From an uncultured Bacteroidales bacterium (GTDB taxonomy: Bacteria > Bacteroidota > Bacteroidia > Bacteroidales > Bacteroidaceae): a stretch of DNA of 35,377 nucleotides. The position numbers and the translations under genes were made by a program. Numbering within the stretch: position 1 is the stretch's first letter; the number at the start of each line of letters is the position of its first letter. The stretch lies in contig CACYQI010000045.1 in NCBI GenBank assembly GCA_902776455.1, forward strand, positions 1 to 35,377. The letters run 5' to 3'. This document shows positions 2,690-33,966 of the stretch, one piece after another. The notes under the pieces were generated by a model. It was not told where the DNA came from. It worked only from the letters and a program-made list of their open reading frames with translations, and ran no database searches.

Positions 2690-2755
2690 GCTCCTACATG
2701 TAGGAGTGATTGCTCCTTCATGTAAGAGCAATTGCTCCTTCATGTAGGAGCAAAG
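2690..2755. repeat. 22-bp tandem repeat, three units (locus 1)
   Basis: Three units begin at 2690, 2712 and 2734, exactly 22 bp apart, each opening with GCTCC. The inner core of each unit is palindromic (CTCCTACATGTAGGAG in the first). It lies in the gap upstream of the secreted protein gene at 2640. In the rest of the gap, 2756-2877, I see no gene; a short minus-strand frame ends in RREMRRQILFN and could be a gene remnant. Confidence 0.85.
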
Positions 2756-2877
2756 GACAAAGCCAGCCTAGTTGAACAGAATCTGCCGCCGCATCTCGCG
2801 ACGCAGCAGCAGAATGGCGCCTTTTATTAACTACAAAAACTAAAACTAACATGTGTTCTGTCTTTTGTCTCGTTCAT

Positions 2878-2942
2878 GTGGATTTGTCGCTTTGTTCGGG
2901 TGGATTTGACCTCCGACCGTGTGGAATGCAGGGATTTGCAAT
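2878..2942. repeat. Degenerate 21-22-bp tandem repeat (locus 2)
   Basis: GTGGATTT begins at 2878 and again at 2900, and a diverged GTGGAATG begins at 2921, so the period is 22 then 21 bp. The word sequence differs from the locus 190 bp away but the period is the same. Confidence 0.55.
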
Positions 2943-2987
2943 CCCGAAATGTCTGTTTCATCACGGAACGGCGGGTCAGTAACTTTG

Positions 2988-3022
2988 ATTTTTCACTTTT
3001 CACTCTTCACTTTTCACTTCTT
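2988..3022 (-). repeat. Heptamer array spanning a stop codon
   Basis: On the minus strand this reads as repeats of AAAAGTG (with an AAGAGTG variant) every 7 bp. The stop codon and the last few codons (SEK-stop) of the secreted protein gene ending at 3007 lie inside the array. Confidence 0.8.
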
Positions 3023-4569
3023 TCTGGCAGTTCTCCAACCCTTTCGAGCTTGAAATCGACGGCTGAGAGCCAACGCCCCGTGAAGAGACGGCCCGTGAGG
3101 TCCTTGTCGCAGGTGACGCCGTAGGTGAGTTTGCCGTCGCGGACAACGATGCCTTCCACTACGCACTTGCTCCAGCCGTAGCCCATGCCGCCATTGGCAA
3201 GGGCGATGCGGACGTCGCCCGGCGAGATTTGTTGTCCCTTCTCGTCGGCTTCCTTGACGCGTATCGCAGCATCCCTCCAGATGTCGCCTCCGCGGTCGTC
3301 GCAGGCGGGAATCTCTCTCAAGAACAGGTCGTCGGCCTTTGCAAAGATGAAGGCTCCCGTGTTGCCGCTAAAGGAGGTACGTCCTGCGGCAGTCAGTCTG
3401 TAGATGCCCGGCTTGAGGTTCGTCTCTTTGTGTTCGGCCGTGTATCTCAGTACGCCGTCCTCGTCGGCACAAGCATCGAGGTACTCCAGCTCGGGATTGC
3501 CCGTGTAGTGCTTGCCCGAAACGGCATAGTACCAACGTCCGCCGTCGTTCTTCGTCACGGTGAAACCGATGTCGCGCAAGAACTGATGACGCTTCGTGTC
3601 GTGGTATTCCAGCCGGACAGACTCGTTGACCTTGTCCTTGAGGATGCTTTCCGAAGCCTTGAAATAGTCTTGTATCTGTGGGTCGCAGCCTTTTGCCTTG
3701 GTCTCCATAGCGTAGAGTCCCTTCCAAATCAACGCATATTCTTCGGGCGTGAGGAGTCGTTCGTAGCGCGAGGCCTCGCGTTTCAGGGCGAAACCAATCG
3801 AGGCGAGTTCCGTTTCGCCGGCTTTCTTGCTGAGTTTCACAAGCTCATTAATCTTGTTGCTCAGGCTGGGAAATCCGTCGTAGTAGTCGCTGACGTGGTC
3901 CATCGCCCGCAGGACATCCCGATGATACTTCGCGCTGACGGCCCACTTGCCGTCAATATAAGTCGTGTCGATTTCCTGCTTCGGGTTGTTCTTCACCGTT
4001 TCGCCCACCTTGATGGCCGTGCGGACGCTGTCCATCGTGACGCGGTCAACTTCATCCACGAGCGTAACAAATTCGGGGTTGTAACCCAGGAACTGGGTGA
4101 AGTAGCCCTGTTTCGTCCCATCTTCCGAGTCGCTCCAAGACAGGATGAAGCCATATACGAGTCCGTCTTCATCAGGGAAAACAATCATATATGTATTGCA
4201 TTCGTCGTATAGCGGAAACCACACATCCGTCCCATTCACCTTTTGGCCTTCGACGAGATGAAGCGCCTTCATGGTTTGCATCTTATAGGGCAAGGAGTAG
4301 CAGTAGTGCAGGGAAGCCTTGTCGAGATGTTCCATGTAGCTTTGCAGGAAGTGTTTGATGGGCTCTTCCCCACGGCAGGCGAACAGCTCCGTTCTTGCGC
4401 TATCGTCTTGTTCCCAAGGATGATCGAGGATTTTCACTTGCTTGTCCTCGAGGAAACGTTGTGAAGCCTTTTGCATAGCAATTGCGTGCTCGTTCTTCTG
4501 CGCTTGGAGCGGCAAAGCCGTCAGAAGCAAGCCGAGGAGCAGGATGCTGAGTTGTGTGAGTCTTTTCAT
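3007..4569 (-). CDS. Secreted protein of unknown function with a C-terminal beta-rich domain
   Basis: 520 residues starting at the ATG at 4569; the open frame reaches to 4686 but only the internal Met is followed by a signal peptide (MKRLTQLSILLLGLLLTALP, cut after LQAQ). I do not recognise the family. The N-terminal two thirds is mainly helical, with Tyr- and Asp-rich stretches. The last 120 residues or so look beta-rich and resemble a carbohydrate-binding-like fold: the motifs LKPGIYRLTAAGRTSFSG and, near the end, LFTGRWLSAVDFKLERV recur in Bacteroidales extracellular proteins. It lies third after the sigma and anti-sigma genes and is separated from them by 161 bp, so it is a plausible member of that regulon. 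The last codons come from a heptamer repeat. Confidence 0.8.
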   Translation of the reverse strand: MKRLTQLSILLLGLLLTALPLQAQKNEHAIAMQKASQRFLEDKQVKILDHPWEQDDSARTELFACRGEEPIKHFLQSYMEHLDKASLHYCYSLPYKMQTMKALHLVEGQKVNGTDVWFPLYDECNTYMIVFPDEDGLVYGFILSWSDSEDGTKQGYFTQFLGYNPEFVTLVDEVDRVTMDSVRTAIKVGETVKNNPKQEIDTTYIDGKWAVSAKYHRDVLRAMDHVSDYYDGFPSLSNKINELVKLSKKAGETELASIGFALKREASRYERLLTPEEYALIWKGLYAMETKAKGCDPQIQDYFKASESILKDKVNESVRLEYHDTKRHQFLRDIGFTVTKNDGGRWYYAVSGKHYTGNPELEYLDACADEDGVLRYTAEHKETNLKPGIYRLTAAGRTSFSGNTGAFIFAKADDLFLREIPACDDRGGDIWRDAAIRVKEADEKGQQISPGDVRIALANGGMGYGWSKCVVEGIVVRDGKLTYGVTCDKDLTGRLFTGRWLSAVDFKLERVGELPERSEK

Positions 4570-4589
4570 AGTTTTTTGTTTTATGGAGT

Positions 4590-4728
4590 TAAATGGGGAG
4601 TTATGGAATGAAGTTAATTCGCTTCGCTCATGGAAGTTAAAGCAGCAGAATATGGTGACGTCCAGCACGAAGTGCTTAACTTCCACTTTAACTTCTTCCG
4701 ATTACTTCCTTTTTAACTTCTGTTTTTA
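4590..4728. repeat. Gap with GAAGTTAA repeats and inverted pairs
   Basis: On the minus strand, just after the anti-sigma stop, the DNA is a purine-rich run of AGAAGTTAAAAAGGAAG type, followed by GGAAGTTAA and its complement TTAACTTCC about 45 bp further on. These enclose a small hairpin (GCACTTCGTGC). It could fold in the transcript between the anti-sigma gene and the secreted protein gene. No gene is seen in it. Confidence 0.55.
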
Positions 4729-4730
4729 AT

Positions 4731-5444
4731 TCATAATGGGATGTAACGTGTTGTGGTATCTACGAGGTATTCCTCTTGGTAGGCGGTCTCCACTTGCTTG
4801 TGGATAATCTTGTTCACCAAGTCCTTGATGCGTTCGTCGGCTCGCATGAGGCCCGTCAGCTCAGCCAGGCAGGAGCTGTCTCGGCAGTCGCCCATCTGGT
4901 TCTCGAGTTGCGTGAGGTAGTAGTAGAGACTGTCCGCGGCAGAGGCAAGCACGACGGCTTCGGTCGGGGGTTGAGGCTCTTCGGCAGGCTTCACTCGGGT
5001 CGTCTTCGAACGTGGCACGTTAACTTTGTCAACTTCACGTGTTAAGTTGGCCAACTTCACGTGTTTAGTTTGCGATTCATCCACGTCATCTTCTTCGATG
5101 ACCTTAGGCGTGTCTTTCTGCTCGACAGGCTTCTCCGTCTTTTCAGCGAGTTGCGTGGGTTGCTGAGGCTTGAAGTTCCACCAGGTGAAGAGTGCTACAA
5201 CTGCGATCAAGACTGCGGCAATTGCCAGAAGAGCCTTTCCCATCGACCTCGTGAAGCGAGGGCCATTCTTCTTTTCGTCCAGCAAAGCTTCGAAGAGCGC
5301 CTCGTCGCGGTCCAGCTCGCTTTCGGTAGGCAGTTCCCACTTCTCCTGCTCTATCGGGTGCTTCCCTTGCAAATAATCGTCGAGAAAGGAATCAATTCTT
5401 AATTCTTCTCTCTTCTTTCTTAATTTCTTGGTGTAGTTATTCAT
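4731..5444 (-). CDS. Single-pass membrane protein, probable anti-sigma factor
   Basis: 237 residues. The N-terminal 67 residues are charged and likely cytoplasmic, one membrane helix spans about 68-89 (GKALLAIAAVLIAVVALFTW), and the remainder is a periplasmic Pro/Glu/Lys-rich linker and a helical tail. The gene overlaps the ECF sigma gene by 8 bp, the classic coupling of a sigma factor and its anti-sigma. It lacks a recognisable zinc anti-sigma motif, so the role rests on topology and position. Residues about 124-146 are encoded by three 22-bp repeat units (5008-5073), the same repeat class found between genes elsewhere in the window; three units make 66 bp and keep the frame. Confidence 0.8.
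   Translation of the reverse strand: MNNYTKKLRKKREELRIDSFLDDYLQGKHPIEQEKWELPTESELDRDEALFEALLDEKKNGPRFTRSMGKALLAIAAVLIAVVALFTWWNFKPQQPTQLAEKTEKPVEQKDTPKVIEEDDVDESQTKHVKLANLTREVDKVNVPRSKTTRVKPAEEPQPPTEAVVLASAADSLYYYLTQLENQMGDCRDSSCLAELTGLMRADERIKDLVNKIIHKQVETAYQEEYLVDTTTRYIPL
5008..5073 (-). repeat. 22-bp repeat inside the anti-sigma gene (locus 3)
   Basis: CAACTTCACGTGTT begins at 5030 and again at 5052, exactly 22 bp apart, and a diverged unit begins at 5008. The 13-mer CCAACTTCACGTG also occurs, in reverse complement, in the gene-free DNA at about 34094-34106. Confidence 0.75.
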
Positions 5445-5949
5445 CGATATATCCTCCTTTCTTTAACATATTATATATAATGTGTCGGGCGTGACTCAAC
5501 ATCGCGCTGACCGTCCTCGCGTTGATGCCTGTCGCAATCGCTATTTCGCGTGTGTCCATCTGTGCTTCGGCAAACATCCGCCAGAGCCGTTTCTCCGAGC
5601 GTCGGAGCGTTCCGGTGGCCCGTCGGAGGGCTTCCTTGAGTTCGCTTTCTTCGAGCGTCTGGCCTTCCTCCGAAGCGGGGAGAGCGGTCTCGTGACTGGT
5701 GGTGAGTGGTGAATGAGGTCGCCGCTGCTCCCTCCGCCACACGTCAATGCACTCGTGTTTGGCTATGCGGATGGCCAGCCGCTCAGCCTCCAAAGGCGAG
5801 GACAGCGAAGGCCAAGCCTTCCAGAGGCGTATCATCGTCTCCTGCGCCACATCCTCTGCCTGCTCCGCCGCCGAGAAGAAATCCTCGCCGACACGCTTTG
5901 CCCGAGTCCGCAAAATAGGCGCCAAACGTTCAAACTCTGTGTGCTCCAT
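5437..5949 (-). CDS. ECF-family RNA polymerase sigma factor
   Basis: 170 residues, normal length for an ECF sigma factor with only regions 2 and 4. Region 2 is at about 5-75 with AEDVAQETMIRLWKAW as the region 2.2 core and CIDVWRREQRR as the DNA-contacting end. Region 4 is at about 105-160, with a helix-turn-helix in TREIAIATGINARTVSAMLS. The anti-sigma gene overlaps its last codons. Upstream lies a word pair AACATTT, 12 bp, CGTTATA that also precedes the outer-membrane protein gene, which points to self-activation. That -10 word is only 7 bp from the start codon, so the transcript would be leaderless or nearly so; no convincing later start exists, since the next Met is inside region 2. Confidence 0.92.
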   Translation of the reverse strand: MEHTEFERLAPILRTRAKRVGEDFFSAAEQAEDVAQETMIRLWKAWPSLSSPLEAERLAIRIAKHECIDVWRREQRRPHSPLTTSHETALPASEEGQTLEESELKEALRRATGTLRRSEKRLWRMFAEAQMDTREIAIATGINARTVSAMLSHARHIIYNMLKKGGYIDE

Positions 5950-5956
5950 ACACCCT

Positions 5957-5982
5957 TATAACGTCGCAAAAGGTCAAATGTT
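5957..5982 (-). promoter_or_regulatory. Candidate autoregulatory ECF promoter
   Basis: Minus-strand AACATTT at 5982-5976, 12 bases, CGTTATA at 5963-5957. Both words and the spacing equal those at 745-770. The expected start of transcription (about 5950) coincides with the ATG at 5949. Confidence 0.55.
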
Positions 5983-6022
5983 ATGCGAAGTTGTAAATAA
6001 TTAACTTTTTTTTTCATTTTTC

Positions 6023-6053
6023 TTTGTCGTTTGGATAAAAAAAAGTAACTTTG
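6023..6053 (+). promoter_or_regulatory. Promoter of tRNA-Leu
   Basis: TTTG at 6023-6026, a 19-bp spacer and TAACTTTG at 6046-6053 match the Bacteroidetes consensus. Transcription would begin near 6060, just ahead of the mature tRNA 5' end at 6065. Confidence 0.8.
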
Positions 6054-6064
6054 CTCCCAATAAT

Positions 6065-6146
6065 GCGCTTGTGGTGGAATTGGTAGACACGCCAGACTTA
6101 GGATCTGGTGCCGAGAGGCGTGTAAGTTCGAGTCTTATCAGGCGTA
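6065..6146 (+). tRNA. tRNA-Leu (anticodon UAG)
   Basis: An 82-nt class II tRNA. The acceptor stem GCGCTTG pairs with CAGGCGT using two G-U pairs. The D arm contains TGGAATTGGTAGACA, the anticodon stem CCAGA/TCTGG carries TAG at 6099-6101, a long variable arm follows (TGCCGAGAGGCGT), and the T arm is GTAAG-TTCGAGT-CTTAT. The discriminator base is A and CCA is not encoded (the next bases are CTA), as is common in Bacteroidetes. It should read the CUN leucine codons, chiefly CUA. Confidence 0.95.
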
Positions 6147-6150
6147 CTAT

Positions 6151-6192
6151 TAGAAAAGGTAAAAAGTTAAAGGGTTAAAAAGTGAAAGTGTT
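6151..6192 (+). repeat. Heptamer-like array after the tRNA
   Basis: Directly after the tRNA the sense strand reads as purine-rich repeats of about 7-8 bp (AAAAGTTAAAGGGTTAAAAAGTG). It lies between the tRNA and the lipoprotein start at 6212 and no terminator is seen, so the two may be co-transcribed. Confidence 0.6.
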
Positions 6193-6211
6193 CAGAGATA
6201 AAGTGTCAGAT

Positions 6212-8284: not shown

Positions 8285-8304
8285 CAGCTTAACGAACAGC
8301 AAAA

Positions 8305-8338
8305 AAGAATCGGAGCTTTGAGAAGGCTCCGATTTCTT
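8305..8338. terminator. Bidirectional intrinsic terminator
   Basis: AATCGGAGC at 8308-8316 and GCTCCGATT at 8326-8334 form a perfect 9-bp stem with a 9-nt loop, flanked by A-rich DNA on the left and T-rich DNA on the right. It sits between the convergent lipoprotein and kinase genes. Confidence 0.85.
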
Positions 8339-8353
8339 TGTATAATCAGAATA

Positions 8354-8455
8354 CTCAGAACACTCTGAATGCTCTGAGAACTCTGCTGAATGCTCTGAGT
8401 ACTCAGAATACTCCGAATACTCAGAGCACTCTGAAAGCTCAGAATTCTCTGAGTG
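8354..8455. repeat. 9-bp tandem array overlapping the kinase 3' end
   Basis: Nonamers of the type CTCAGAATA or CTCTGAATG follow each other from 8354 (8354, 8363, 8372, 8381, then one 12-bp unit, 8393, 8402, 8411, 8420, 8429, 8438, 8447). Units alternate between CTCAGA and CTCTGA and so can pair with one another. The last two units encode the C-terminal residues of the kinase (TLREF-stop). Confidence 0.85.
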
Positions 8456-9682: not shown

Positions 9683-9986
9683 CAATAATTTTTTTAATTT
9701 TCGATATGATTTGTAGAGTTTATCGTAATGTCATAGCTATTTTTTGTGCATCCCATCATTATCGATGCCCGCTCGAAGCTTCGCCATAAACAGCAAAACC
9801 CTGGCAGGTTCCCGCTGCCGATGAGGGAATTGAAAACTTGTAATATCATCAGCCAAGACGAGGCTTTGAACTTTATTCCCTTCCCATTGAGCCGTCTCTG
9901 AACATGGACTTGTTCTGAAAAATCACGACATCATTTTGCCGCCCAACACAAGGAAAAGGTTTGCTCAAAACGGGGCGCCGGCTGAT
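9683..9986. other. Gene-free stretch
   Basis: I see no gene, RNA or clear repeat in this stretch. At about 9600-9630, just before it, a minus-strand run containing GCCACAGAAGCAA resembles the middle of the 93-bp repeat described at 10177. Confidence 0.5.
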
Positions 9987-10054
9987 GCTCCGTGCTGTGT
10001 AGGTCGATGCTCCACGTTGTGTCGGCTTTTGCTCCATGTTGTTTTCACCGCTCC
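9987..10054. repeat. 22-bp tandem repeat (locus 4)
   Basis: GCTCC begins at 9987, 10009 and 10031, exactly 22 bp apart, and again at 10050 (19 bp). The second unit, GCTCCACGTTGTGT, matches in reverse complement the units at 33813-33856. Confidence 0.85.
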
Positions 10055-14725: not shown

Positions 14726-16246
14726 ATGACAGAACTCAAGAATCTACATAACCCCGAGACGAACGACACCTCCTACGACCATGTGCTGAAATACACCGGC
14801 ATCTTCGGAGGCGTACAGGGTTTGAAGATGCTTGTCAGCGTGGCTCGTGTGAAGCTTACCGCCAAGATTCTCGGCGGCACAGGCATGGGGCTTATCTCGG
14901 CCTACAACGCAGTTTCCGAGTTTCTCATCAGCGCGAGCAACATGGGCATCCCCTTGAATGCTACGCGCAAGACCAGCGAACTGTTCGAGGAAGGCACAGA
15001 GGCCCAGATAACCCATCAAGTGATGGTCATTCGCACTTGGGTGCTTTGGGCAGCGCTTCTCTCGGTGTTCATCTGCCTGTTCTTCTCGCCTGTCATCAGT
15101 TATTACTTCTTCAAGCACGACTGGCATCGCTGGCCTGCCGTGATGCTCACCTCGATTGTGGCGGCAACAAACATCATAGCCGAGGGCGAATGTGCCATTC
15201 TGAAAGGACTGCGACAAGTGCGGAAAGTGGCTATCCTCGAGACCATTCTTGCCGTCGGCACCTTGCTTTGCACCATCCCCATGTACCTTCTCCTGGGCGT
15301 TCATGGCGTCATCCTCGGACTCATCGCCTGCGGAGTCCTTTCGGCCGTGCTGCACTTCTACTTCTCGCTCCCATTGGTGTCGTACAAAGTCCGACCCTTT
15401 TCCCAGAAAACCTTCTGCGAAGGTCTGCCCCTCATCAAGGTAGGCATCCCCTACGTGCTAGCCGGAGTCTCCAACTCTTGTCTTCGCATGGTCATTCCGG
15501 CCATCATACTTGCCCATCACACCATGTCCGAGCTGGGGCACTTCAATGCCGGATGGCTGCTCATGGTCAGCTATTCGGGACTCCTGTTCATGGCCTTGGA
15601 GTCCGACTACTTCCCGCGGCTCTCCTCCGTCAACAACGATAGGGTGCGCATGAACCACACCATCAACCAGCAGATAGACATTTGTACGCTCATCCTCAGC
15701 CCCTTTCTTATCCTGCTTGTCGTGCTCATGCCTCTCGTGCTCCAACTGCTCTACGAAGACGAGTTTCTCGCAGTCACGGGGATGGCAACCCTTTCGGCCT
15801 TCTATCCTTTCCTGCGTTGCATGTCGTTGCCGATGGCCTATAGCATCCTTGCCAAAGGGCACAGCATATCCTTCATGGTGCTGGAGATTGTTTACGACGT
15901 CTTTTTCGGAGTGCTCATCTGGTGGCTCTACAACTCCTTTGGCCTCATCGGAGCGGGCATAGCGCTGTCCGCCGGAGCCATATACGACGTGGTGGTCTAT
16001 TTCATTTACTGCCATGTCCGCTACGGTTTCGTGTTCCGTCGCAGCACGTTGCTCTTCTTCTTCGGGCAGTTTGTCTGCCTGGTTGTAGCCGTAGAGTACT
16101 GCTACCTCGTCTCTCCCTCCCCGGAGCAGAAGTACATCATCGGCGGCCTTGCCTTCCTCGTCGCCTTGGCCCTGAGCCTCTACCAGCTTCTGAACCATTC
16201 GAGCCTCGCCAAGCGGCTGGCCGGCAAGTTCCGCTTCCATCGGTAA
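14726..16246 (+). CDS. Polysaccharide flippase (Wzx-like, MOP superfamily)
   Basis: 506 residues from the ATG at 14726; a longer frame starts at 14681 but the promoter -7 box lies inside it. The protein is an integral membrane protein with about 12 predicted helices (for example LLSVFICLFFSPVISYYFF and LILLVVLMPLVLQLLY). The early segment ARVKLTAKILGGTGMGLISAYNAV is typical of O-antigen translocases, which flip lipid-linked oligosaccharides across the inner membrane. The exact substrate is unknown. The gene is divergent from the glycosyltransferase, and the transcript has a leader of only about 15 nt. Confidence 0.88.
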   Translation: MTELKNLHNPETNDTSYDHVLKYTGIFGGVQGLKMLVSVARVKLTAKILGGTGMGLISAYNAVSEFLISASNMGIPLNATRKTSELFEEGTEAQITHQVMVIRTWVLWAALLSVFICLFFSPVISYYFFKHDWHRWPAVMLTSIVAATNIIAEGECAILKGLRQVRKVAILETILAVGTLLCTIPMYLLLGVHGVILGLIACGVLSAVLHFYFSLPLVSYKVRPFSQKTFCEGLPLIKVGIPYVLAGVSNSCLRMVIPAIILAHHTMSELGHFNAGWLLMVSYSGLLFMALESDYFPRLSSVNNDRVRMNHTINQQIDICTLILSPFLILLVVLMPLVLQLLYEDEFLAVTGMATLSAFYPFLRCMSLPMAYSILAKGHSISFMVLEIVYDVFFGVLIWWLYNSFGLIGAGIALSAGAIYDVVVYFIYCHVRYGFVFRRSTLLFFFGQFVCLVVAVEYCYLVSPSPEQKYIIGGLAFLVALALSLYQLLNHSSLAKRLAGKFRFHR

Positions 16247-16251
16247 GATTC

Positions 16252-16324
16252 CACATCTAAATAAATGAAAAGCACGGAGGGGTGGGGTGTATCACACAGA
16301 AAGCACGGAAATCACGGAAAGGCT
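16252..16324. repeat. 73-bp direct repeat, left copy
   Basis: Matches 16672-16744 with one mismatch by eye. It contains short inner repeats (CACAGAAAG, CACGGAAAT, CACGGAAAG). It starts 6 bp after the flippase stop. Confidence 0.9.
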
Positions 16325-16444: not shown

Positions 16445-16655
16445 AAGTCCCAAAGGGACGAAAGACCACAGACGGGGGCGTAGCCCCCGGTAATACTGCA
16501 ACGGCAGATAAAGCCCCGAAGGGGCGACAGAGACTAAGCATGTTGTTATTAAACACGTTACATATTCTGTCGCCCTTTCGGGGCTTTTGTTTTGTTGATA
16601 CTCCTGTACCGGGGGTTCACACCCCCGTCTGTGGTCTTTCGCACCTTCGGTGCTT
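16445..16655. repeat. Large palindromic element made of small hairpins (copy 1)
   Basis: An imperfect inverted repeat of about 210 bp centred near 16548. From the outside in, the left half has hairpins GTCCC-AAA-GGGAC (16447-16459), GGGGGC-GTA-GCCCCC (16474-16488) and GCCCC-GAA-GGGGC, and the right half mirrors them (GCCCTTTCGGGGC, CGGGGGTTCACACCCCCG, GCACCTTCGGTGC). The word ACAGACGGGGG and its complement flank the second hairpins. The open frames inside are by-products. A relative lies at 29331-29632. Confidence 0.85.
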
Positions 16656-16671: not shown

Positions 16672-16744
16672 CACATCTAAATAAACGAAAAGCACGGAGG
16701 GGTGGGGTGTATCACACAGAAAGCACGGAAATCACGGAAAGGCT
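16672..16744. repeat. 73-bp direct repeat, right copy
   Basis: The partner of 16252-16324, 420 bp downstream. The two copies bracket the palindromic element. The remaining DNA to 16822 shows no gene. Confidence 0.9.
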
Positions 16745-16822: not shown

Positions 16823-16910
16823 CTCCACGGCATGTTTTCCAACACTCCACGTTGAATTGGCTTACACTACGTGGAGTGTTGCCAAATCCTCCATGTAGTT
16901 TCCACCGACT
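16823..16910. repeat. 22-bp tandem repeat (locus 5)
   Basis: Units begin at 16823, 16845, 16867 and 16889, exactly 22 bp apart, with CTCCAC or its complement GTGGAG in each. The stretch GGCTTACACTACGTGGAG is nearly the same as the one at 33822-33840. Confidence 0.85.
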
Positions 16911-22730: not shown

Positions 22731-24073
22731 TGCTACCGCCAAAGGTTTTCCCCCTAAAGGGGGTTAGGGGGTCTATTGACCTCATTACTCTCGGTTGCAG
22801 CAAGAACCTTGTTGACAGCGAGAAACTCATCCGTCAGCTCGAACTGAACGGCTACAACGTCACGCACGATGCCGAAGAGCCTAACGGGGAGATAGCCATC
22901 GTGAACACCTGCGGCTTCATCGGCGACGCCAAAGAGGAGAGCATCAACATGATCCTGCAACTCGCTCAGCGCAAGCAGGAGGGCAAGCTCCGCCTGCTCA
23001 TCGTCATGGGATGCCTCTCGCAACGCTACCTGCACGAGCTGCAGACCGAACTGCCCGAAGTGGACCGCTTCTACGGGAAGTTCGACTGGAAACAGATTGT
23101 CACCGACCTTGCAGGGACTTACTTCGCCGAAGCACGCAACGAGCGGCGGATAACTACCCCTTCCCACTATGCCTATCTCAAGATAAGCGAGGGGTGCAAC
23201 CGCCGTTGTGCCTATTGTGCCATCCCTATCATCACCGGCAAGCAGAAGAGCCGACCCATTGAGGACGTCGTCGCGGAAGTGGAAGGGCTGGTCGCAAAGG
23301 GCGTCAAGGAGCTGCAGGTCATCGCGCAGGAACTGACCGGCTACGGCACAGACCTCTACGGAAAGCAGATGATAGCCCCGCTCATCGACCGTATCGCCCA
23401 AGTGCCAGGCGTCGAATGGATACGACTCCATTACGCCTATCCCACCAGCTTCCCGATGGAACTGCTGGAAGTGATGAAGCGTCGCTCCAACGTCTGCAAG
23501 TACCTCGATATCGCCCTGCAGCACATCAGCGACAGCCAGCTCTCGGCCATGCATCGCAACATCACGCGGCAGCAGACCTACGACCTCATCGAAACCATCC
23601 GTCAAGAAGTGCCCGGCATTCATCTCCGCACAACCTTGATAGTAGGCTTCCCCGGCGAGACCGACGAAGACTTCCGCCAACTCCTCGACTTCGTGAAGTG
23701 GGCAAAGTTCGAGCGGATGGGAGCTTTTGCCTATAGCGAAGAAGATGGAACCTACAGCGCAGAGCATTACAAGGACGATGTTCCCGACGAGGTGAAGCAG
23801 GCGCGTCTGAGCAAACTGATGCTTGTGCAGCAGCGAATAAGTGCCGACTTTCAGCAGAGCAAAGTAGGGCAGGAACTAAGGGTCATCATCGACCGCGAAG
23901 AAGGCGACTACTTCATCGGCCGCACCGAATACGACTCGCCCGAAGTTGACCCCGAAGTGCTCATCTCAAAGCAGCAGGCTCCTGGCCTTCGCCCGGGCAT
24001 GTTCGTGCAGGCAAAGATAGAAAGCGCCGACGACTTCGACCTATATGCAAGGAAGTTGAAAATTGAAAGTTGA
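22721..24073 (+). CDS. rimO: Ribosomal protein S12 methylthiotransferase RimO
   Basis: 450 residues. It adds a methylthio group to an aspartate of ribosomal protein S12 using two iron-sulfur clusters. The N-terminal UPF0004 domain has Cys26 (TLGCSKN), Cys64 (NTCGF) and Cys98 (MGCLS) for one cluster. The radical SAM domain has Cys159, Cys163 and Cys166 (CNRRCAYC) for the other, and the C-terminal TRAM domain is at about 385-448. LGCSKNLVDSE and the NTCGFIGDAKEESI motif mark RimO rather than MiaB. Residues 4-18 (LLPPKVFPLKGVRGS) are extra and encoded by a palindromic repeat (CCCCCTAAAGGGGG). The last residues, KLKIES, come from a heptamer array. Confidence 0.96.
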   Translation: MKNLLPPKVFPLKGVRGSIDLITLGCSKNLVDSEKLIRQLELNGYNVTHDAEEPNGEIAIVNTCGFIGDAKEESINMILQLAQRKQEGKLRLLIVMGCLSQRYLHELQTELPEVDRFYGKFDWKQIVTDLAGTYFAEARNERRITTPSHYAYLKISEGCNRRCAYCAIPIITGKQKSRPIEDVVAEVEGLVAKGVKELQVIAQELTGYGTDLYGKQMIAPLIDRIAQVPGVEWIRLHYAYPTSFPMELLEVMKRRSNVCKYLDIALQHISDSQLSAMHRNITRQQTYDLIETIRQEVPGIHLRTTLIVGFPGETDEDFRQLLDFVKWAKFERMGAFAYSEEDGTYSAEHYKDDVPDEVKQARLSKLMLVQQRISADFQQSKVGQELRVIIDREEGDYFIGRTEYDSPEVDPEVLISKQQAPGLRPGMFVQAKIESADDFDLYARKLKIES

Positions 24074-24090
24074 AAATTGAAAATTGAAGA
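24053..24090 (+). repeat. Heptamer array at the rimO stop
   Basis: AAGTTGAAAATTGAAAGTTG and further AAAATTG heptamers. The rimO stop codon at 24071-24073 lies inside it. Confidence 0.85.
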
Positions 24091-24613: not shown

Positions 24614-24862
24614 ATACTTATGGCCCCTAATTAGCACCCAGAACATTCCTCTTTCCGCCTGCGCCTGAGCGAAGCGAAGAACCGAAAGTAAATGGTAAAT
24701 GATTAAATGGTAAATGCAGAGCCTCTCCCCATCCCTCTCCCAAACCCTCCCCTAAAGGGAAGGGCTTGAAGGGAGGGAAACAAATGGTAAATGGTAAATG
24801 ATTAAATGGTAAATGAGAGATGGTAAATGGTAAATGATTAAATGATAAATGGTAAATGAGAG
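24614..24862. repeat. AAATGGT/AAATGAT arrays with a palindrome between them
   Basis: Gene-free gap before the HU-LysM gene. The 28-bp word seen at 24240 recurs at 24653. Two AAATGGT/AAATGAT arrays, 24688-24718 and 24782-24862, flank a palindromic stretch (CCCTCCCCTAAAGGGAAGGG). The second array ends at the start codon of the next gene and holds many out-of-frame ATG triplets. Confidence 0.8.
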
Positions 24863-25981
24863 ATGTCTAAGATAACCCTCCAACAGTTAGCCAAAGTGCT
24901 GGCACAGAAGAAGCACATAACGCAAAAGGAAGCCGAGGCTTTCCTTCGTACCTTCTTCGATGCCATCCTACAGAATGTCGCCGACGACAAGATAGTCAAG
25001 ATAAAAGGTCTTGGCACCTTCAAACTCGTAGAGGTCCTCGACCGTGAGAGCGTTAATATCAACACCGGCTCTCGCATCGTCATACCCGGGCATGTCAAAC
25101 TATCCTTCACCCCCGACACGTCGCTCAAAGACCTGGTCAACAAACCCTTTGCCGACTTCCAGACCGTCATCATCAACGAAGGCACAAGCCTGGAGGAAAT
25201 GGAAAGAACTCCCGTCGAACCCTCCCCCGACATGACCGAAGAGGAAGGACCTCTCTCCAGTTCCCCCTCGGGGGAGCTGGAGGGGAGTCTTGCTGCGGGA
25301 GCAAGGGGCAAGGAGCAAGGGGCAAGAGAATACCAACAGCCAGAGCAATCCTCCTGCTCCTTGCCCCCAGCCCCCTGCCCCTTAAAAGGGGAGCTGGAGG
25401 GGGGGCTTTCGGGAGAGGCTTCGACCGTCCAGCTTCGTGCCATGACAACGGCCGAGAAGTGGGCATTGACACTTGGCGTCGCCCTGCTCTGCATCGCCAG
25501 CTATTTCGTCGGCTACTATCGACTGTTCGGCTCTTTTGGTGACGCAACCCCAGTGGAAGATGCCTGGCAGAACGAAATCACTTCCGGCGACATAGCCGAC
25601 ACCATGTCCGTCTATGAGGACACCACTCTGCTCCCTGTCGCCGATGAAGACACCGTCCTTTCCCTTCCTGCCGACGAGGACACCGTTCAGACCCTTCCCG
25701 CCCAAGAAGAAGCTCGCTCTGTCGCTCCCGCTTCATCCTACAGCCCGAAGACAGACGTCGCCCCCCAGCCCAAGCTCGACCCCGCCAAGACCTATCGGAT
25801 AACAGGAACACGAAAAACCCACATAATGAAGTCAGGCGACTACCTCACCAAAATCGCCTTGCAGGAATACGGCCACAAAGACTTTGCCCGTTACATCATC
25901 CATCACAACAACTTCCGCGACCCCGATAACGTCCCCATCGGTGCAGAAGTCAAACTTCCCGAATTGAAACTCGCAGAGTGA
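24863..25981 (+). CDS. HU-domain protein with a membrane segment and a LysM domain
   Basis: 372 residues. Residues 1-92 are an HU-like DNA-binding domain (QLAKVLAQKKHITQKEAEAF, KIVKIKGLGTFKLVEV, NINTGSRIVIPGHVKLSF). A low-complexity linker follows (about 93-195), then one membrane helix at about 198-218 (KWALTLGVALLCIASYFVGY), an acidic repeat region (DEDTVLSLPADEDTVQTLP) and a LysM domain at about 319-368 (HIMKSGDYLTKIALQEYG to IGAEVKLPEL). The build suggests a tether between nucleoid DNA and peptidoglycan, with the N-terminus in the cytoplasm. Residues about 128-188 are encoded by palindromic and GGGGCAAGG-type repeats also found between genes, captured in frame. Linked to ftsY, rimO and HU. 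Confidence 0.9.
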   Translation: MSKITLQQLAKVLAQKKHITQKEAEAFLRTFFDAILQNVADDKIVKIKGLGTFKLVEVLDRESVNINTGSRIVIPGHVKLSFTPDTSLKDLVNKPFADFQTVIINEGTSLEEMERTPVEPSPDMTEEEGPLSSSPSGELEGSLAAGARGKEQGAREYQQPEQSSCSLPPAPCPLKGELEGGLSGEASTVQLRAMTTAEKWALTLGVALLCIASYFVGYYRLFGSFGDATPVEDAWQNEITSGDIADTMSVYEDTTLLPVADEDTVLSLPADEDTVQTLPAQEEARSVAPASSYSPKTDVAPQPKLDPAKTYRITGTRKTHIMKSGDYLTKIALQEYGHKDFARYIIHHNNFRDPDNVPIGAEVKLPELKLAE

Positions 25982-28469: not shown

Positions 28470-28504
28470 GTCGAAATGTTTGTTGTCCGATAGTTTTTAG
28501 ACTG

Positions 28505-28512
28505 CAAATTTA
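28505..28512 (-). promoter_or_regulatory. -7 box of the GH51 gene
   Basis: Minus-strand TAAATTTG. A weak CATG stands where the -33 box should be. The leader is about 28 nt. Confidence 0.5.
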
Positions 28513-28576
28513 CTAATAATCGTCCCATAAACATGCGATACGACTGCTTTTTAACCTTTTTTAAACAGACTCAGCC

Positions 28577-28606
28577 TCTGCCGACAAGGACATTTTTGTA
28601 ACTTTG
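28577..28606 (+). promoter_or_regulatory. Promoter of the carbonic anhydrase gene
   Basis: TCTG at 28577-28580, an 18-bp spacer and TAACTTTG at 28599-28606. The leader before the ATG at 28627 is about 14 nt. Confidence 0.65.
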
Positions 28607-28626
28607 CATAACGAAAACGATGTATT

Positions 28627-29166
28627 ATGATAGACCAGATTATTGAATACAACAAGTCTTTCGTCGAGCAGAAGGGCTATGAGAAGTATCTTACGGATAA
28701 GTACCCGGACAAGAAGCTAGCTGTGCTGTCCTGCATGGACACGCGTTTGACGGAGCTGCTCCCAGCCGCTCTAGGACTGAAGAATGGCGACGCAAAGATT
28801 ATCAAGAACGCTGGCGGCTTGGTGATTTCTGCTTTCGACTCGGCCATGCGTAGTCTGATTGTCGCCATCTACGAGTTGGGGGTGCAGGAGATTATGGTGG
28901 TGGCTCATTCTCATTGTGGTGCCTGCCACATGAGCTACGACCATTTCCACCATGAAATGATTGCTCGTGGCGTGACAGATGCGACACTCGAAACCATCCG
29001 CAAGTGTGGCATAGACCTCAACCAATGGCTGGAGGGCTTCAAGGACACGCCTACTTCTGTCCGCAAGACGGTTGAGACCATCAAGACACATCCGCTGGTG
29101 CCCAAGGATATAGTGGTCAGAGGCTTCATTATCGACTCTGAGACAGGTGCTTTGGAAGAGATTTGA
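28627..29166 (+). CDS. Beta-class carbonic anhydrase
   Basis: 179 residues, the short type. It interconverts carbon dioxide and bicarbonate with a zinc ion. The ligands are Cys36 (in SCMDTR), His94 and Cys97 (in AHSHCGAC), and Asp38-Arg40 is the catalytic dyad. NAGGLVISAFDSAMRSL between them is typical of the family. It is a single cytoplasmic gene with its own promoter, divergent from the GH51 gene. Bicarbonate supply would fit the carboxylation-based succinate metabolism common in Bacteroidales, which is an inference. Confidence 0.95.
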   Translation: MIDQIIEYNKSFVEQKGYEKYLTDKYPDKKLAVLSCMDTRLTELLPAALGLKNGDAKIIKNAGGLVISAFDSAMRSLIVAIYELGVQEIMVVAHSHCGACHMSYDHFHHEMIARGVTDATLETIRKCGIDLNQWLEGFKDTPTSVRKTVETIKTHPLVPKDIVVRGFIIDSETGALEEI

Positions 29167-29179
29167 AGGATTATCTTAA

Positions 29180-29302
29180 ATTAACGTGAATTCTTCGGCA
29201 AGCCTCAGGCGCAGGCGGAAGCGTGTTTTATCTTTAACATATAATTGCCATGTAATTGCCCATTAATTTCCAATAATTATTTTTCCTCGAATTCACGTTA
29301 AT
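29180..29302. repeat. Inverted repeat after the carbonic anhydrase gene
   Basis: ATTAACGTGAATTC at 29180-29193 and its perfect complement at 29289-29302. Between them lies a CTCAGGCGCAGGCGGAA word, the complement of the word at 24240 and 24653. Confidence 0.7.
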
Positions 29303-29330
29303 CTTAAATTCTTGTCCTTGTTGTCCGCCA

Positions 29331-29632
29331 AATAAGCGCCGAAGGCGCGAAAGAACACAGACGGGGGTGTAACTCCCGGTAATTGCGCAACAACACAAAA
29401 AGTCCCGAAGGGACGACAGAGACATAAGCAATATGATATTAAACAAGTTAGATATTCTGTCGCCCTTTGACTTCGTCGACCTTTGGTTCAGGGCTTAGTT
29501 TTGTTGATGCTCCTGTACCGGGGGCTTGCGCCCCCGTCTGTGGTCTCTCGTCCCTTCGGGACTTTTGTATGTTGATGCCCTTGTGCTGGGGGGGTACCCC
29601 CGTCTGTGTTCTTTCGCACCTCCTGTGCTTTC
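29331..29632. repeat. Large palindromic element made of small hairpins (copy 2)
   Basis: Same plan as 16445-16655. Hairpins from left to right are GCGCC-GAA-GGCGC, an ACAGACGGGGG hairpin, GTCCC-GAA-GGGAC, the central AT-rich loop, a CGCCCTTT...GGGCTT hairpin carrying an extra 20-odd bases, CGGGGGCTTGCGCCCCCG, GTCCC-TTC-GGGAC and GGGGGGGTACCCCC. The stem words differ from copy 1 but pairing is kept, and the right side has one more unit. Confidence 0.8.
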
Positions 29633-29674
29633 CCCCTGGACAACAATAATAAATTCCTGCATGTATCACGAAAA

Positions 29675-29706
29675 AAGGTGTCCGCCGGAAGACCGACGAA
29701 CACCTT
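29675..29706 (-). terminator. Intrinsic terminator of the large secreted protein gene
   Basis: On the minus strand AAGGTGT pairs with ACACCTT and is followed by TTTT; the inner part (GTCGGTC, CCGGCGG) adds pairing. It lies 63 bp past the stop codon. Confidence 0.8.
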
Positions 29707-29768
29707 GTCGTTGTGCTTTCCTTCTCTATTGGGAGAAGGAGGGCTTTTTAGGGTTGTAAGCTGAGTTC

Positions 29769-32700
29769 TTACTTGATGACAACCTTCTTGCCGTTCACGA
29801 TGTAGAGACCCTTCTGAGCCTTCTGTACGCGCTGACCGGCGATGTTGTAGATAACAGCATTCTTCTCGTCCTGACGGAGAGCGTCAATGCCAGTACCTGT
29901 CTCAGCCCAAACGATGTTCGACTTGTTGCACTCGCCGCCACCGTAGTAGATGCTCTGTACGCCGAGCTTTGTCCAGGTTGCGGGTTCGTCAGACGGGTTG
30001 AAGTAGAACCTGCTGCCGCCCTTATAGATATCGTAGTTGTCCTCGTAGTTATAAGGAATCTCAACCATATCCTCTTCTACGTCGCGATAGTCAGCTGCTG
30101 TAACAGTGAAGGGCTGGATCTGTCCGTCCTTCTCAATCCAGACGGTGTAGAAGAGCTTCGATGCGAGCAGGTCGTTGCCGTCCACATCCGTAGCGGGGAT
30201 GATGAAGGAGGCGTTGGGAAGGCTTGTACCTTCAATCTTTAAGTTTTCGATAGTAGGATCGGCAGGCGTAGCAGCAAACTCTTCCAGCTTGGTGATGGTC
30301 ACGTCTGTGAAGGTCTGGTAGGGATAGGACATGAACTTGCTGCCGTTGATTACCATAGTCTGACTTGTGCTGAAGGTCTGAGTCTGAGCATCATAGTTCA
30401 GTACAAGGTCGGCGAACTGGCCTGAGGTAGCATCGGATGCGGTAATGTAGTAGGGGAACTCGTATGAACCGAAGACCGATTCGATCTCGAGCTTGCCGAT
30501 GTACTGGTTGGCGGGGATGGTGACGGTCATGCCGTCTTCGCTCAGAGTACCCTTAGCCCATAGCTCGGCTGTGTTGTCGGAGAAGCCTTTGAAATAGACA
30601 TCGTTTCCGTCGAAGCCGACTTGTGTCTGATAGGTATATTCCTTCAGCTCGTAAGCCTTGCGGATGTTCTTCGTGAAAGATATTGCACCGGGCAGCTGCT
30701 CGTCCTCATCCTCTGTCTCCACCAGTTCGTTGGCCTTGAAGAGGAAGGTCTCGGTTGCCAGTTCGGCGGGAGCTGTCACGGGTTCGACTACGATGGGTTC
30801 GCCCTCGTAGAGTGTTGCCAGTGTCCAGAAGCCCCATGCCTTGATTTCTCCCTCTTCATTGAGGCCGGTCTCTGTCGGGCTTTCCAGAATGTACGGAGTA
30901 ACTTGTGTCAAAGTCTTAGCCTCGGCATCGTATGCGAACTGGAAGTCGCAAGTGTTTTCACCGTCGAAACCAATCATGAACTCCATTCCATAATCGTCCT
31001 TGCCGACGAACTGGCTTGCGGGGAAGGTGGCAATGCCGGTTTCGGCATCAATGGTACCCTTCACCCATGCTTCGGGGAAGTAGATGGGGAGACCCTTTAC
31101 ATAGACGTCGTTGCCGTTGAAGGCCACTTCGGTAGCAATCTGCTTGTCTTGGTAGTTGCCATTGCCATCGCTGTAAACACCTTCCAGGGTCCATGCCTGA
31201 GCTTCAACGCCTTCGGGCAGTTCGACGAGGTCGGGCAGAACAAGTGCGCCGGGAGTATATACTGCGCTTTCGAAGTAATCCCAGAGGCTTGAAGCATCCT
31301 TTGTGCCGGATTCACCGTAGTAACCTTCGAGTGTCAGTACGCCTGTTTCTGTGTCGAGGTTGAAGACGATGTTTTCCTCGTTGGTGAAGTTGTTTTGTTC
31401 GTCAACGCCAATAGCAACGAGATACTCTACGCCATAATCGTCCTCGCCAACAAACTGTCCAGTGGGAACGATGACTTGATTCTCTTCGGTCAGGGTACCC
31501 TTGACGTATGCTTCGGGGAAGTAGTATGCGAGGCCCTGGAGATAAACGTCTGTGCCGTCGAAGGCCACATTCTTTGTCTCCTCAATGCTGATGTTGCCCT
31601 GGCTTGTTGCGCCGGAAGCCGTCAGCGTGTATTCAATGGGTTCTACGCCCTCGGGCAGTACGACGAGTTCGTCCTCTTCTCCTTCGCCGCCGCCTTCGCC
31701 TGCCTCAACAGTTACTGTGATGCTGTTAATCTGGGTGTTGCCGGCAATGGTGACGATAACGGTCTGTGCTTCGCCTGTCCAGACGGCACCTTCGAATTCG
31801 CCACTGTCAGCGCTGTTGCCTTCGTTCCACTTTCCATTGTTGCTGAAGTCAATCTTGGTGATGACAGAGCCTTCGGGAACTGTAAACGTCAGTGTGCCGC
31901 TATATACGCGAAGTTGCGGGCCGTTCTTGGTGCTCCAGAAGCGGTTGGGCGTGGTGGCGCTGTCGTCCTTCGGAGAGATGGTCAGTGTAACGCCGCTTTC
32001 GGTCAGTGTCTTTGCCTCGTTGATGTCGCCATCGGTTGTCACGCCGCTTGATGTCGGCACGTCCATCGCGTTGAAGTTGAAGGTAGCTTCTGTCGGGCCG
32101 CTGTAGTTCTTGATTTGGAACCACTGAATTTCGGTTGCATTTGTCTCGCCGCCGCCATAGTAGATGCTCTGGATGCCCAGGCTATTCCATGTTGCGGAGT
32201 AGAGGTCGTTGAGGAAGATCTGGCCGTTGTAGAAGTCATAGTTCTCGGTGAAACCGTAGGGAATCTCCGTCATGTTCTCGGTCAGTTTCGCATGTGTGGC
32301 GGGTGTAAAGGTCAGGGGAGCTATCTCTCCCTCTACGTCGGTGTAGATCATGTAGTAGAGCTTCGAGGTGATAAGGCCGTCACCATTAACGTCTACAGTC
32401 GGGACGTTGAAGTTGAGGTACCAGCCATAGTCGCCGTTCTCCAGAGAGGCGATGGCGGGATTGGCGGGCATGACTGCCTTCTCGACAGCTTTCTTGAATA
32501 CTGCGCTGCGATAGGAATCGAAGTAGTACTGGGAGTTGTCGACAAGGAAGAACTCGTTCTGTGCCGTGAGTGTGCCTGCCTCGGCATCGTAGTTGAATAC
32601 GACATCTGCGGATACCAGGGTATTCAGGTACATGTCGTAGGAGCCTCCATAGTTACCGAGATACTGGCCGTAGGGGAATGTGATGGTCGTACCGTCAAGG

Positions 32701-33542
32701 GTTCCCTTTACCCATGCATCAGGAAGATAAGTGCTCAGGCCTTGGATGTAAACGTCGCTGCCATCGAATCCGATATATACAGAGCCGGATACGTCGCTGT
32801 CATCTTTGTAGTTTCGTGCTGTGACAGAGTACTCTTCGGTCTCCAGTCCTTCGGGTGCTACGACTACCGAAAGGGGATCTGCAGGGGTCAGCGTACTGCC
32901 TTCTACCCAGTAGGGTGTCAGGTTGTAGCCGTCATACTGGCCTCCGGTGAGAACACGCGCGAGCCAGGGTTGGATGGAAATCGTGCCGTCCTCCTGGATA
33001 TAGCCATAGATGTCGCTGAAGTACCAGCCACCTGCACTCTCTTCGTCGCCCTCATAGAAGAACAAACCATTGAGGACGTAGTCGCCATAGGAGGATGTTC
33101 CTGCTACCTGGCCAGCTGCAATCTGGAAGTAGTCGCCGTCCTCGTCGCTTACCAATGTTGCCTCCAAGCTGTTGGGGAACATGCCGCTGATGGTGATACC
33201 GCCATCGGTGGTGGTAGAGAGGGCAATGGAGACACGCGATGAGCCTTCCGTCTTTTCGAGGTTCTCAAGGTCGGTCGAGCTCTCATTTGCCGTTTGATAG
33301 CTCCAGGTGTAGTCGCCTACGAGGTCAGCTGCAGCCACGGCCTTCTTGGGAGAACGCGCCCTGCTGCTCTGAATCTTGCCTGCCAACTCTTTCGGAGCTT
33401 GCTTGATGCTTGCCTTCTGACCCAGACTGATCTGCTTCAGGAAGGGAGCCTCCTGAACTGTGGAAAGACGCTTTTGAGGGCCATCAGCCATTGCTGCGAC
33501 AGCTATAAACGCTGCCAAAAGCATGAATGTAAACTTTTTCAT
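29769..33542 (-). CDS. Large modular secreted protein with a type IX-like C-terminal tail
   Basis: 1257 residues with a signal peptide (MKKFTFMLLAAFIAVAAMA). I do not recognise a named family, but the build is clear. Four copies of a module with the core GFDGNDVYxxGLxxYxPEAWVKGTL occur near residues 253, 660, 805 and 975. Two copies of another module end in GIQSIYYGGGE and GVQSIYYGGGE, near 455 and 1195, each preceded by a fibronectin-like stretch (DVNGDGLITSKLYY, DVDGNDLLASKLFY). One inserted beta domain at about 490-630 has SVITKIDFSNNGKW and NTQINSITVTVEAG. The C-terminal 40 residues (AVIYNIAGQRVQKAQKGLYI, then VNGKKVVIK) are a typical Prevotella sorting tail. Probably a surface or released binding protein; function unknown. 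Confidence 0.85.
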   Translation of the reverse strand: MKKFTFMLLAAFIAVAAMADGPQKRLSTVQEAPFLKQISLGQKASIKQAPKELAGKIQSSRARSPKKAVAAADLVGDYTWSYQTANESSTDLENLEKTEGSSRVSIALSTTTDGGITISGMFPNSLEATLVSDEDGDYFQIAAGQVAGTSSYGDYVLNGLFFYEGDEESAGGWYFSDIYGYIQEDGTISIQPWLARVLTGGQYDGYNLTPYWVEGSTLTPADPLSVVVAPEGLETEEYSVTARNYKDDSDVSGSVYIGFDGSDVYIQGLSTYLPDAWVKGTLDGTTITFPYGQYLGNYGGSYDMYLNTLVSADVVFNYDAEAGTLTAQNEFFLVDNSQYYFDSYRSAVFKKAVEKAVMPANPAIASLENGDYGWYLNFNVPTVDVNGDGLITSKLYYMIYTDVEGEIAPLTFTPATHAKLTENMTEIPYGFTENYDFYNGQIFLNDLYSATWNSLGIQSIYYGGGETNATEIQWFQIKNYSGPTEATFNFNAMDVPTSSGVTTDGDINEAKTLTESGVTLTISPKDDSATTPNRFWSTKNGPQLRVYSGTLTFTVPEGSVITKIDFSNNGKWNEGNSADSGEFEGAVWTGEAQTVIVTIAGNTQINSITVTVEAGEGGGEGEEDELVVLPEGVEPIEYTLTASGATSQGNISIEETKNVAFDGTDVYLQGLAYYFPEAYVKGTLTEENQVIVPTGQFVGEDDYGVEYLVAIGVDEQNNFTNEENIVFNLDTETGVLTLEGYYGESGTKDASSLWDYFESAVYTPGALVLPDLVELPEGVEAQAWTLEGVYSDGNGNYQDKQIATEVAFNGNDVYVKGLPIYFPEAWVKGTIDAETGIATFPASQFVGKDDYGMEFMIGFDGENTCDFQFAYDAEAKTLTQVTPYILESPTETGLNEEGEIKAWGFWTLATLYEGEPIVVEPVTAPAELATETFLFKANELVETEDEDEQLPGAISFTKNIRKAYELKEYTYQTQVGFDGNDVYFKGFSDNTAELWAKGTLSEDGMTVTIPANQYIGKLEIESVFGSYEFPYYITASDATSGQFADLVLNYDAQTQTFSTSQTMVINGSKFMSYPYQTFTDVTITKLEEFAATPADPTIENLKIEGTSLPNASFIIPATDVDGNDLLASKLFYTVWIEKDGQIQPFTVTAADYRDVEEDMVEIPYNYEDNYDIYKGGSRFYFNPSDEPATWTKLGVQSIYYGGGECNKSNIVWAETGTGIDALRQDEKNAVIYNIAGQRVQKAQKGLYIVNGKKVVIK

Positions 33543-33599
33543 AAGCTAAAGTTTTTTAATTATTAATAATGAAGTTAACTGTATAAGCATATTTGGGCA

Positions 33600-33631
33600 C
33601 AAAGATACAATTTCCTGCGCAATAATGCAAG
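33600..33631 (-). promoter_or_regulatory. Promoter of the large secreted protein gene
   Basis: Minus-strand TATCTTTG at 33607-33600 with CTTG 20 bp upstream at 33631-33628. The leader is about 50 nt. Confidence 0.6.
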
Positions 33632-33760
33632 AAAAGTCCTTGTTTTCTTCTCTACATATCGTATTTATTGTCGCAAAAACCCGCAAAACGGGTCGAAATG
33701 TCCGTCGACGATTAGCCATTCAAACCTGATTTCATAGAACCCACCTTAATTGAATCTGCT

Positions 33761-33805
33761 TGAAAAAGACCTGTAACGACTAAAAGCCCTTAGCCAAGGA
33801 CATGG
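33761..33805. repeat. 45-bp direct repeat, left copy
   Basis: Begins TGAAAAAGACCTGTAACGAC and differs from 33973-34017 at about five positions. The copies contain small palindromes, such as AGTCCTGTAAGGACT in the right copy. Confidence 0.85.
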
Positions 33806-33812
33806 CTGCTTC

Positions 33813-33966
33813 GTGGAGCGTGGGCTTACACAACGTGGAGCGTGAGCCGATGCTCCGTGGAGTGTGGGCCGAAGCTCCGTGCTGTGACTTAACGTGTAAA
33901 GTTGGATGACTTAACGTGTAGAGTTGGCTGAATTAACGTGTAGAATTGGCTGACTTAACGTGTGAG
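33813..33966. repeat. 22-bp tandem repeat, seven units (locus 6)
   Basis: Units begin at 33813, 33835, 33857, 33879, 33901, 33923 and 33945. The first units carry GTGGAGNGTG, the later ones TTAACGTGTAGAGTTGGCTG, yet the 22-bp phase never slips. The array fills the space between the two 45-bp direct repeats. Confidence 0.9.

Follow-up and report, generated by a model that had tools for sequence, protein, structure and literature searches.

The nearest described system is that of the BrickBuilt MITEs of P. gingivalis, which consist of a 23-nt repeat of a single word, number 19 copies in ATCC 33277, carry a leader and a tail with IS5-like TIRs, and are reported in P. gingivalis and P. gulae (PMC4596501). 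The arrays described here resemble them as spacer-free tandem repeats of a Bacteroidales genome that lie mostly between genes, with predicted stem-loops and a MITE nested in one element, and perhaps in the gain and loss of whole units known for BrickBuilt between strains, but differ in being mostly 22 bp long, in using many words, in occurring in several genera and in having no common leader or tail that could be found. The 22-, 23- and 41-nt direct repeats of P. gingivalis W83, for which no exact locations had been given according to PMC4596501, have equal unit lengths and come from the same bacterial order. REP, BIME and REPIN sequences are likewise intergenic short palindromes with lineage-specific words that form clusters, whereas the canonical ones have a foot of the GTAG type and are paired with a cognate Y1 transposase (PMC6006769, PMC3733652) and the arrays here have a near-constant pitch and no consistent transposase partner. 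The units are contiguous, with no separate spacer class visible by eye, unlike CRISPR. To our knowledge, a length near 22 bp held across genera by unrelated words is unusual for bacterial intergenic DNA. Titles, abstract openings and parts of five articles (PMC4596501, PMC6006769, PMC3733652, PMC7366714, PMC5771137) yielded no description of an order-wide 22-bp class, which is weak evidence of absence.

The window, i.e., the whole stretch of DNA analyzed (35,377 nucleotides), is the complete contig C45, one of the 94 that make up a 3.39-Mb draft genome (G000), whose closest named relatives in an EF-Ts comparison are uncultured Bacteroidaceae/Prevotellaceae MAGs, several of them from herbivore guts. 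A preliminary description had listed six loci with a 22-bp period in this window. A lag-22 test with a score cut-off of 11 or more recovered three of them clearly (2688, 5019, and 33812) and a fourth more modestly (9984). The array at 16823 escaped the test because one of its units is flipped, yet it stands on hand reading, its dyad centers (16827.5, 16849.5, 16871.5, and 16893.5) being exactly 22 bp apart. The locus at 2878, also missed at this cut-off, does not by itself stand out from chance, since GTGGANTT has three matches in the window against 4.3 expected. A fifth segment returned by the test (24782–24859) is a 7-bp array. The cores said to be shared among the loci are indeed present, and the core copy noted near 34094 turned out to belong to an array unit that a 132-bp MITE has cut in two, of which it is the second half. 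The array at 2688 displays a full-unit dyad at 20 of 22 positions (p = 0.003 versus shuffles). In the 237-aa ORF, the array at 5019 falls after a single hydrophobic stretch seen by eye; a protein family search gave no family above its cut-off, and the position beside a sigma-factor gene suggests a possible anti-sigma role. BrickBuilt ends were not found at the window arrays, as the sole match to the GAGACCTTTGCA-like TIR (up to two mismatches, window only; 3.7 expected) lies off the arrays, at 15416–15427.

Table 1 Features of the window; positions count from its first nucleotide.
Position	Strand	Feature	Basis
2688–2753		22-bp array, three units of the near-palindrome TTGCTCCTTCATGTAGGAGCAA	Lag-22 test; clear
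2876–2925		Possible degenerate array: two copies of GTGGATTT at a distance of 22 bp	Sequence reading
4731–5444	-	ORF of 237 aa adjoining a sigma-70-family gene (5437–5949)	ORF call
5019–5073		22-bp array, 2.5 units, dyads CACGTG and TTGGCCAA 11 bp apart, within the ORF	Lag-22 test; clear
9984–10042		22-bp array of TGCTCCACGTTGTG type between the EF-Ts gene and an APH-family gene	Lag-22 score 14.5; modest
16823–16900		22-bp array, four dyads, one unit flipped	Hand reading
33812–33884		Compound array, part 1: CTCCGTGGAG-type units	Period 22, clear
33885–33962		Compound array, part 2, past the word switch: TGACTTAACGTGTAGAGTTGGC units, the final one cut by the MITE	Period 22, clear
33963–34094		MITE TGAGTCC...GGACTCA within an array unit; CGTG at each border (33959–33962, 34095–34098)	
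34095–34111		Remainder of the MITE-interrupted array unit, CGTGAAGTTGGATGATG	

To survey the genome, 400 kb of its 3.39 Mb was sampled as 20 stretches of 20 kb from contigs without listed CACGTG-N16-CACGTG matches, so that this word is under-sampled and the bias runs against the result. Raw lag segments numbered 50 at 22, none at 19, one each at 20 and 23, 31 at 21, and 77 at 14. After removal of segments explained by a shorter period, the primary periods were 43 at 22, four at 21, two at 14, one at 24, and none at 20 or 23, and no period from 13 to 60 other than 22 rose above six. A period of 22 bp is the sole strong long repeat period in this sample, far above the neighboring lags, against the possibility raised beforehand that it might be no stronger than they are; the arrays occur about once per 9 kb. 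Allowing up to one mismatch, CACGTG-N16-CACGTG was found at 40 places in G000 compared with two for the reversed control. Permissive TRF runs gave 83 arrays with a 22-bp consensus (49 indel-free) next to 18 at 20, 67 at 21, and 17 at 23, noisy counts on which the main claim does not rest. About 101 kb in 20 further stretches around pattern matches were left out of all counts. Heptamers, i.e., 7-bp tandem arrays, are abundant as well (window 2990–3019, 24053–24088, 24782–24865, and others) and the 400-kb sample has a strong signal at lags 14 and 21.

The sample and the window together yielded 55 segments, of which six short-period repeats were dropped and 49 arrays kept. By crude gene calls (77% coding), 47 of these lie outside called genes and two inside, one being the window array at 5019–5073, whereas BrickBuilt repeats are described as always intergenic; 27 occupy gaps between tandem genes, 11 convergent and four divergent gaps, and five fall at stretch ends. 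They group into 11 word families with 32, five, three, and two members plus seven singletons, among them several that resemble simple low-complexity repeats. The main unit, as read by eye, combines a 10-bp block CNNC-AC-GNNG (or with a GT core) and a 12-bp block of type CATCGGCTTACG, in either orientation and with halves mixed. In 41 of the 49 arrays the best dyad falls between bases, and 119 of the 161 unit cores of these arrays have AC/GT as their core dinucleotide, compared with 14% of dinucleotides. A serine-recombinase-like 2-bp core (AC/GT) was ruled out as a general feature by odd-length loops in Bacteroides units. Full-unit dyad symmetry (p < 0.05) was detected in 9 of 43 period-22 arrays of G000 versus 1 of 19 at other periods, in 12 of 42 arrays at 22 and 1 of 8 at 23 among named Bacteroidales loci versus 10 of 102 at other periods, and in 4 of 13 in same-genus samples (22 and 23 pooled). 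A local test with 6-bp arms was barely above shuffles (4.49 vs 4.28), and many units, most of all those of the commonest family, CTCCACGGAG, have short dyads only. Dyad symmetry is real in a minority of arrays (about 20–30%) and weak or absent elsewhere. A candidate link of the arrays is to PM2, a near-palindromic promoter motif of B. thetaiotaomicron.

Using a fixed list of core words, we then measured how far apart cores lie in the window and the G000 sample, for distances below 40 bp. These distances were 22 bp in 86 cases, 20 in four, 24 in ten, 26 in one, and 37 in one. As the distances of 20 and 24 fit flipped units (in one case the second core is palindromic), 100 of the 102 neighboring pairs have their dyad centers separated by 22 bp. 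Adjacent units nevertheless differ at several positions, with 444 substitutions over 117 pairs (mean 3.8). Noncoding alignments of relatives contain 82 gap openings per 458 mismatches, a ratio at which about 80 indels would be expected in the 117 unit pairs; the unit set being ungapped by construction, the core-spacing count, with two of 102 off the pitch, is the fairer comparison. Unrelated words in Bacteroides hold the same spacing. When whole genomes were searched for GTTTC-N7-GAAAC pairs with gaps left free (17–47 bp allowed, listings counted by hand), B. faecis had 37 places (26 at 22, 11 at 44), an irregular middle unit being present in two of the 44-bp steps; G215 had 37, with 30 at 22, three at 44, and four at 45; and B. 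xylanisolvens had 44, with 39 at 22 and five at 44. Pooled, 114 of 118 places lie at 22 or 44. Two more genomes, G206 and G198, had 37 and 22 places, with spacings listed in part, and controls gave zero in all five. A similar test for CACGTG (11–41 bp allowed, listings counted by hand) gave 47 places in G027, of which 44 at 22, one at 20, and two at 24. The first 50 of 534 places in G036 comprised 37 at 22, ten at 21, two at 24, and one at 20, and spacing was mixed in G018, with many 30-bp steps. The pitch is not absolute, as 21-bp steps in G036, 30-bp steps in G018, and species at 23 show. The 534 CACGTG pairs of G036 sit in 2.7 Mb, and a 21-bp unit type recurs among the 50 places listed.

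The period extends beyond G000, with words that change. CACGTG-N16-CACGTG with up to one mismatch occurs 1 to 642 times in 36 other genomes of the same genus (control 0 to 38), although in 15 of these it is not above control (G011: 17 vs 38), and 0 to 2 times in 24 genomes from the order's other families. Its exact form is present in 4 of 118 genomes of the phylum including G000, once in each of the other three. Lag 22 (score 14 or more) was found at 28 of 80 named EF-Ts loci, some of low complexity, after two with N runs only had been dropped. Primary periods at these 80 loci (1.42 Mb) were 42 at 22, 16 at 21, 12 at 24, eight at 23, and one at 20, and in 20 same-genus stretches (311 kb) 11 at 22, three at 21, and two at 23; the 23-nt unit of BrickBuilt differs from the period of G000, which is 22, and 23 appears only in some other species. 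Small samples gave one period-22 array in other orders of the class (165 kb) and none in other classes (188 kb) or E. coli (100 kb). That sole array from another order (L202, 10593–10653, AAAACCTGCTCAGGTTTTTGAT) also has inverted arms. The word is GTTTCAAGCCTTGAAACAATTT in B. faecis and GGGAATCATGCACGATGATTCC in L097. Of 10 named genomes, three have the GTTTC word with up to two mismatches (B. faecis 64, B. xylanisolvens 39, G185 4); it is absent from two B. fragilis, P. vulgatus, and P. plebeius, and found in 15 of 41 genomes of the B. faecis genus. A Bacteroides-type GTTTC/GAAAC array also lies on contig C87 of G000 (L262), by either horizontal transfer or contamination. Many gut Bacteroidales carry intergenic arrays with a unit of about 22 bp, with words differing between species and within an array, and this suggests that something reads or fixes their spacing.

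The near-fixed pitch, the changing words, the tolerated flips, and the scarcity of indels make selection on spacing the best explanation, in line with the length constraint proposed in the preliminary description. The pitch, the word switching, the flips, one whole-unit change between orthologous arrays, the dispersal of one composite, and the intergenic placement are observed directly. From the constraint we infer a reader with cooperative binding and any benefit to the cell; the simplest such reader would be a cooperative DNA-binding protein acting at two turns. Our preferred reading, to which we give a probability of roughly 0.45, is therefore that the arrays are protein-binding sites at a two-turn pitch, carried by MITE-like elements. 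Each 22-bp unit would carry a conserved core, which in some families is a dyad. Neighboring units, two turns apart on nearly the same helix face, would be occupied by one or several DNA-binding proteins that vary between lineages. Loss of pitch would break the cooperative complex, so that length would be kept while the word may change with its reader. The arrays, which lie mostly between genes and least in divergent gaps, would grow and shrink by local unit duplication and be partly dispersed in MITE-like elements. Against protein-binding sites, a genome with so many word families would have to possess either numerous readers or a single reader of great tolerance, and an old 22-bp unit, inherited and homogenized, could also keep its length.

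The main rival, serious but somewhat less probable, is a functionless satellite, in which a 22-bp minisatellite residing in MITE-like elements, as BrickBuilt repeats do, spreads by transposition and slippage and retains its founder length by mainly in-register exchange. It covers the dispersal and the decay of the arrays equally well. With word switches counted in, arrays that have at least four units show an identity of 0.82 between neighboring units and of 0.60 between units five apart, and flanking 22-mers are weakly in phase (0.32 and 0.35 vs 0.25–0.26), a pattern that looks like local duplication of a 22-bp unit already present. The suggested alternative, in which the copying mechanism would itself set the length, found no direct support. 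Dispersal is documented for the MITE TGAGTCC...GGACTCA, with 19 matches and 11 near-complete copies, four of which (window, L254, L255, and L256, the last with an altered left end) are nested within an array unit with CGTG on each side. The CGTG borders, the similar word order, and the same right flank identify an array-MITE composite at four loci, whereas other copies have 4-bp duplications (L258 TTGT, L260 AAGG, L261 TGAC). One composite copied to four loci does not make a single known mobile element the cause of the arrays, the alternative entertained in the preliminary description. Among 12 pattern-picked B. faecis loci, many arrays by eye resemble copies of one short MITE-like element, with units mostly ordered and ends TAGTTCC/TTGAAACA. 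A TA target duplication for the GTTTC elements was not upheld: their ends are often TA|GTTYC by eye, yet no clean empty site was found.

Presence and absence of arrays between species, like their uneven load in the 36 species of one genus, also favor the satellite. A B. faecis array within ~250 bp is absent from B. xylanisolvens, with no clean target duplication, and L101 and L102 keep a 23-bp array of 57–58 bp at one place. Orthologous loci L052 and L054 share CTGCAG units, L052 having an extra 44 bp (two units) and AACGTG in its later units; this, the one clean whole-unit change, is in favor of the protein-binding reading. Most other orthologous gaps compared differ by lengths that are not multiples of 22, and L291 and L299 differ by 25 bp inside a GTTTC element, an off-period change that counts for the satellite and against binding sites. 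What the satellite does not cover is the common length of unrelated words, both in different genera and within one genome, and off-period steps are nearly absent from arrays although their units are several substitutions apart.

An unlikely third reading takes the arrays as tandem small hairpins, i.e., RNA or single-stranded DNA stem-loops serving, for example, transcript protection or ending, 22 bp being two turns of an A-form helix. The dyad excess is in its favor, and array density is highest in convergent gaps (11 per 12.6 kb), followed by tandem (27 per 47.1 kb) and divergent gaps (4 per 16.6 kb). Hairpins fit the GTTTC units, since GTTTC-N7-GAAAC can form stem-loops, but the CTCC units do not suit this reading. 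Pairing is poor in many units, CTCCACGTTG being an example, and the array downstream of tsf lies, by eye, past the likely terminator. A known RNA family was rejected for the arrays of the window and those of 14 loci, as none in Rfam scored at its gathering level on them.

Plasmid iterons and MuA/TnsB end sites are ~22-bp sites repeated in phase, but they belong to one origin or to element ends, whereas the present arrays occupy many chromosomal places with changing words; with 43 arrays in 400 kb of chromosome-like contigs, an iteron origin is unlikely. A phage or plasmid origin was rejected, as array patterns are almost absent from viral contigs (exact patterns in IMG/VR: the GTTTC array pattern matched a single viral contig and a CTCCACGGAG pattern matched none) and one B. 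xylanisolvens array had no plasmid match in PLSDB. The same array matched three unannotated fecal “Bacteriophage sp.” records, one of them 99.4% identical to it, which may be host DNA. Manufacture and spread of units by a RAYT-type Y1 (HUH) transposase is very improbable. The arrays do resemble REPs in being short, palindromic and intergenic and in having words specific to a lineage (PMC6006769), and a clear PF01797 match exists in array-rich G027 and G035 and also in G013. This family nevertheless does not track array load: it has no match at E 0.001 in the richest genome, G036, or in G018, G005, G012, and G008 (80–89% complete drafts), and three weak matches in G000 (two over the cut-off). 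No GTAG/GTGG foot was visible by eye in the units.

If a protein does read the pitch, dominant gut bacteria would have an unrecognized layer of control over genes or the chromosome, which tractable Bacteroides strains make it possible to test at once. A bolder and rather doubtful extension would have phased 22-bp dyad arrays form a network across whole Bacteroidales chromosomes, in which a putative fast-evolving family of DNA-binding readers co-evolves with the word while the two-turn pitch stays fixed; such a network would be the bacterial equivalent of a satellite DNA that serves chromosome structure. If no protein reads them, the arrays are a clear example of satellite DNA in bacteria and can supply markers for strains.

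Other repeats accompany the arrays in the window. Large tandem repeats with TRF periods of 46 to 207 bp, composed of CTCCTT/AGGAGT 8- and 9-mers, run from 34312 to the contig end at 35377. A direct repeat of ~73 bp containing CACGGAGGGGTGGGGTGTATCACACAGAAAGCACGG (16252–16324 and 16672–16744) flanks a stretch that by eye is rich in stem-loops. The Rfam Acido-Lenti-1 RNA has two matches in the window, at 16609–16654 and 29518–29563, and another in L108 (7769–7814) near a 22-bp array.
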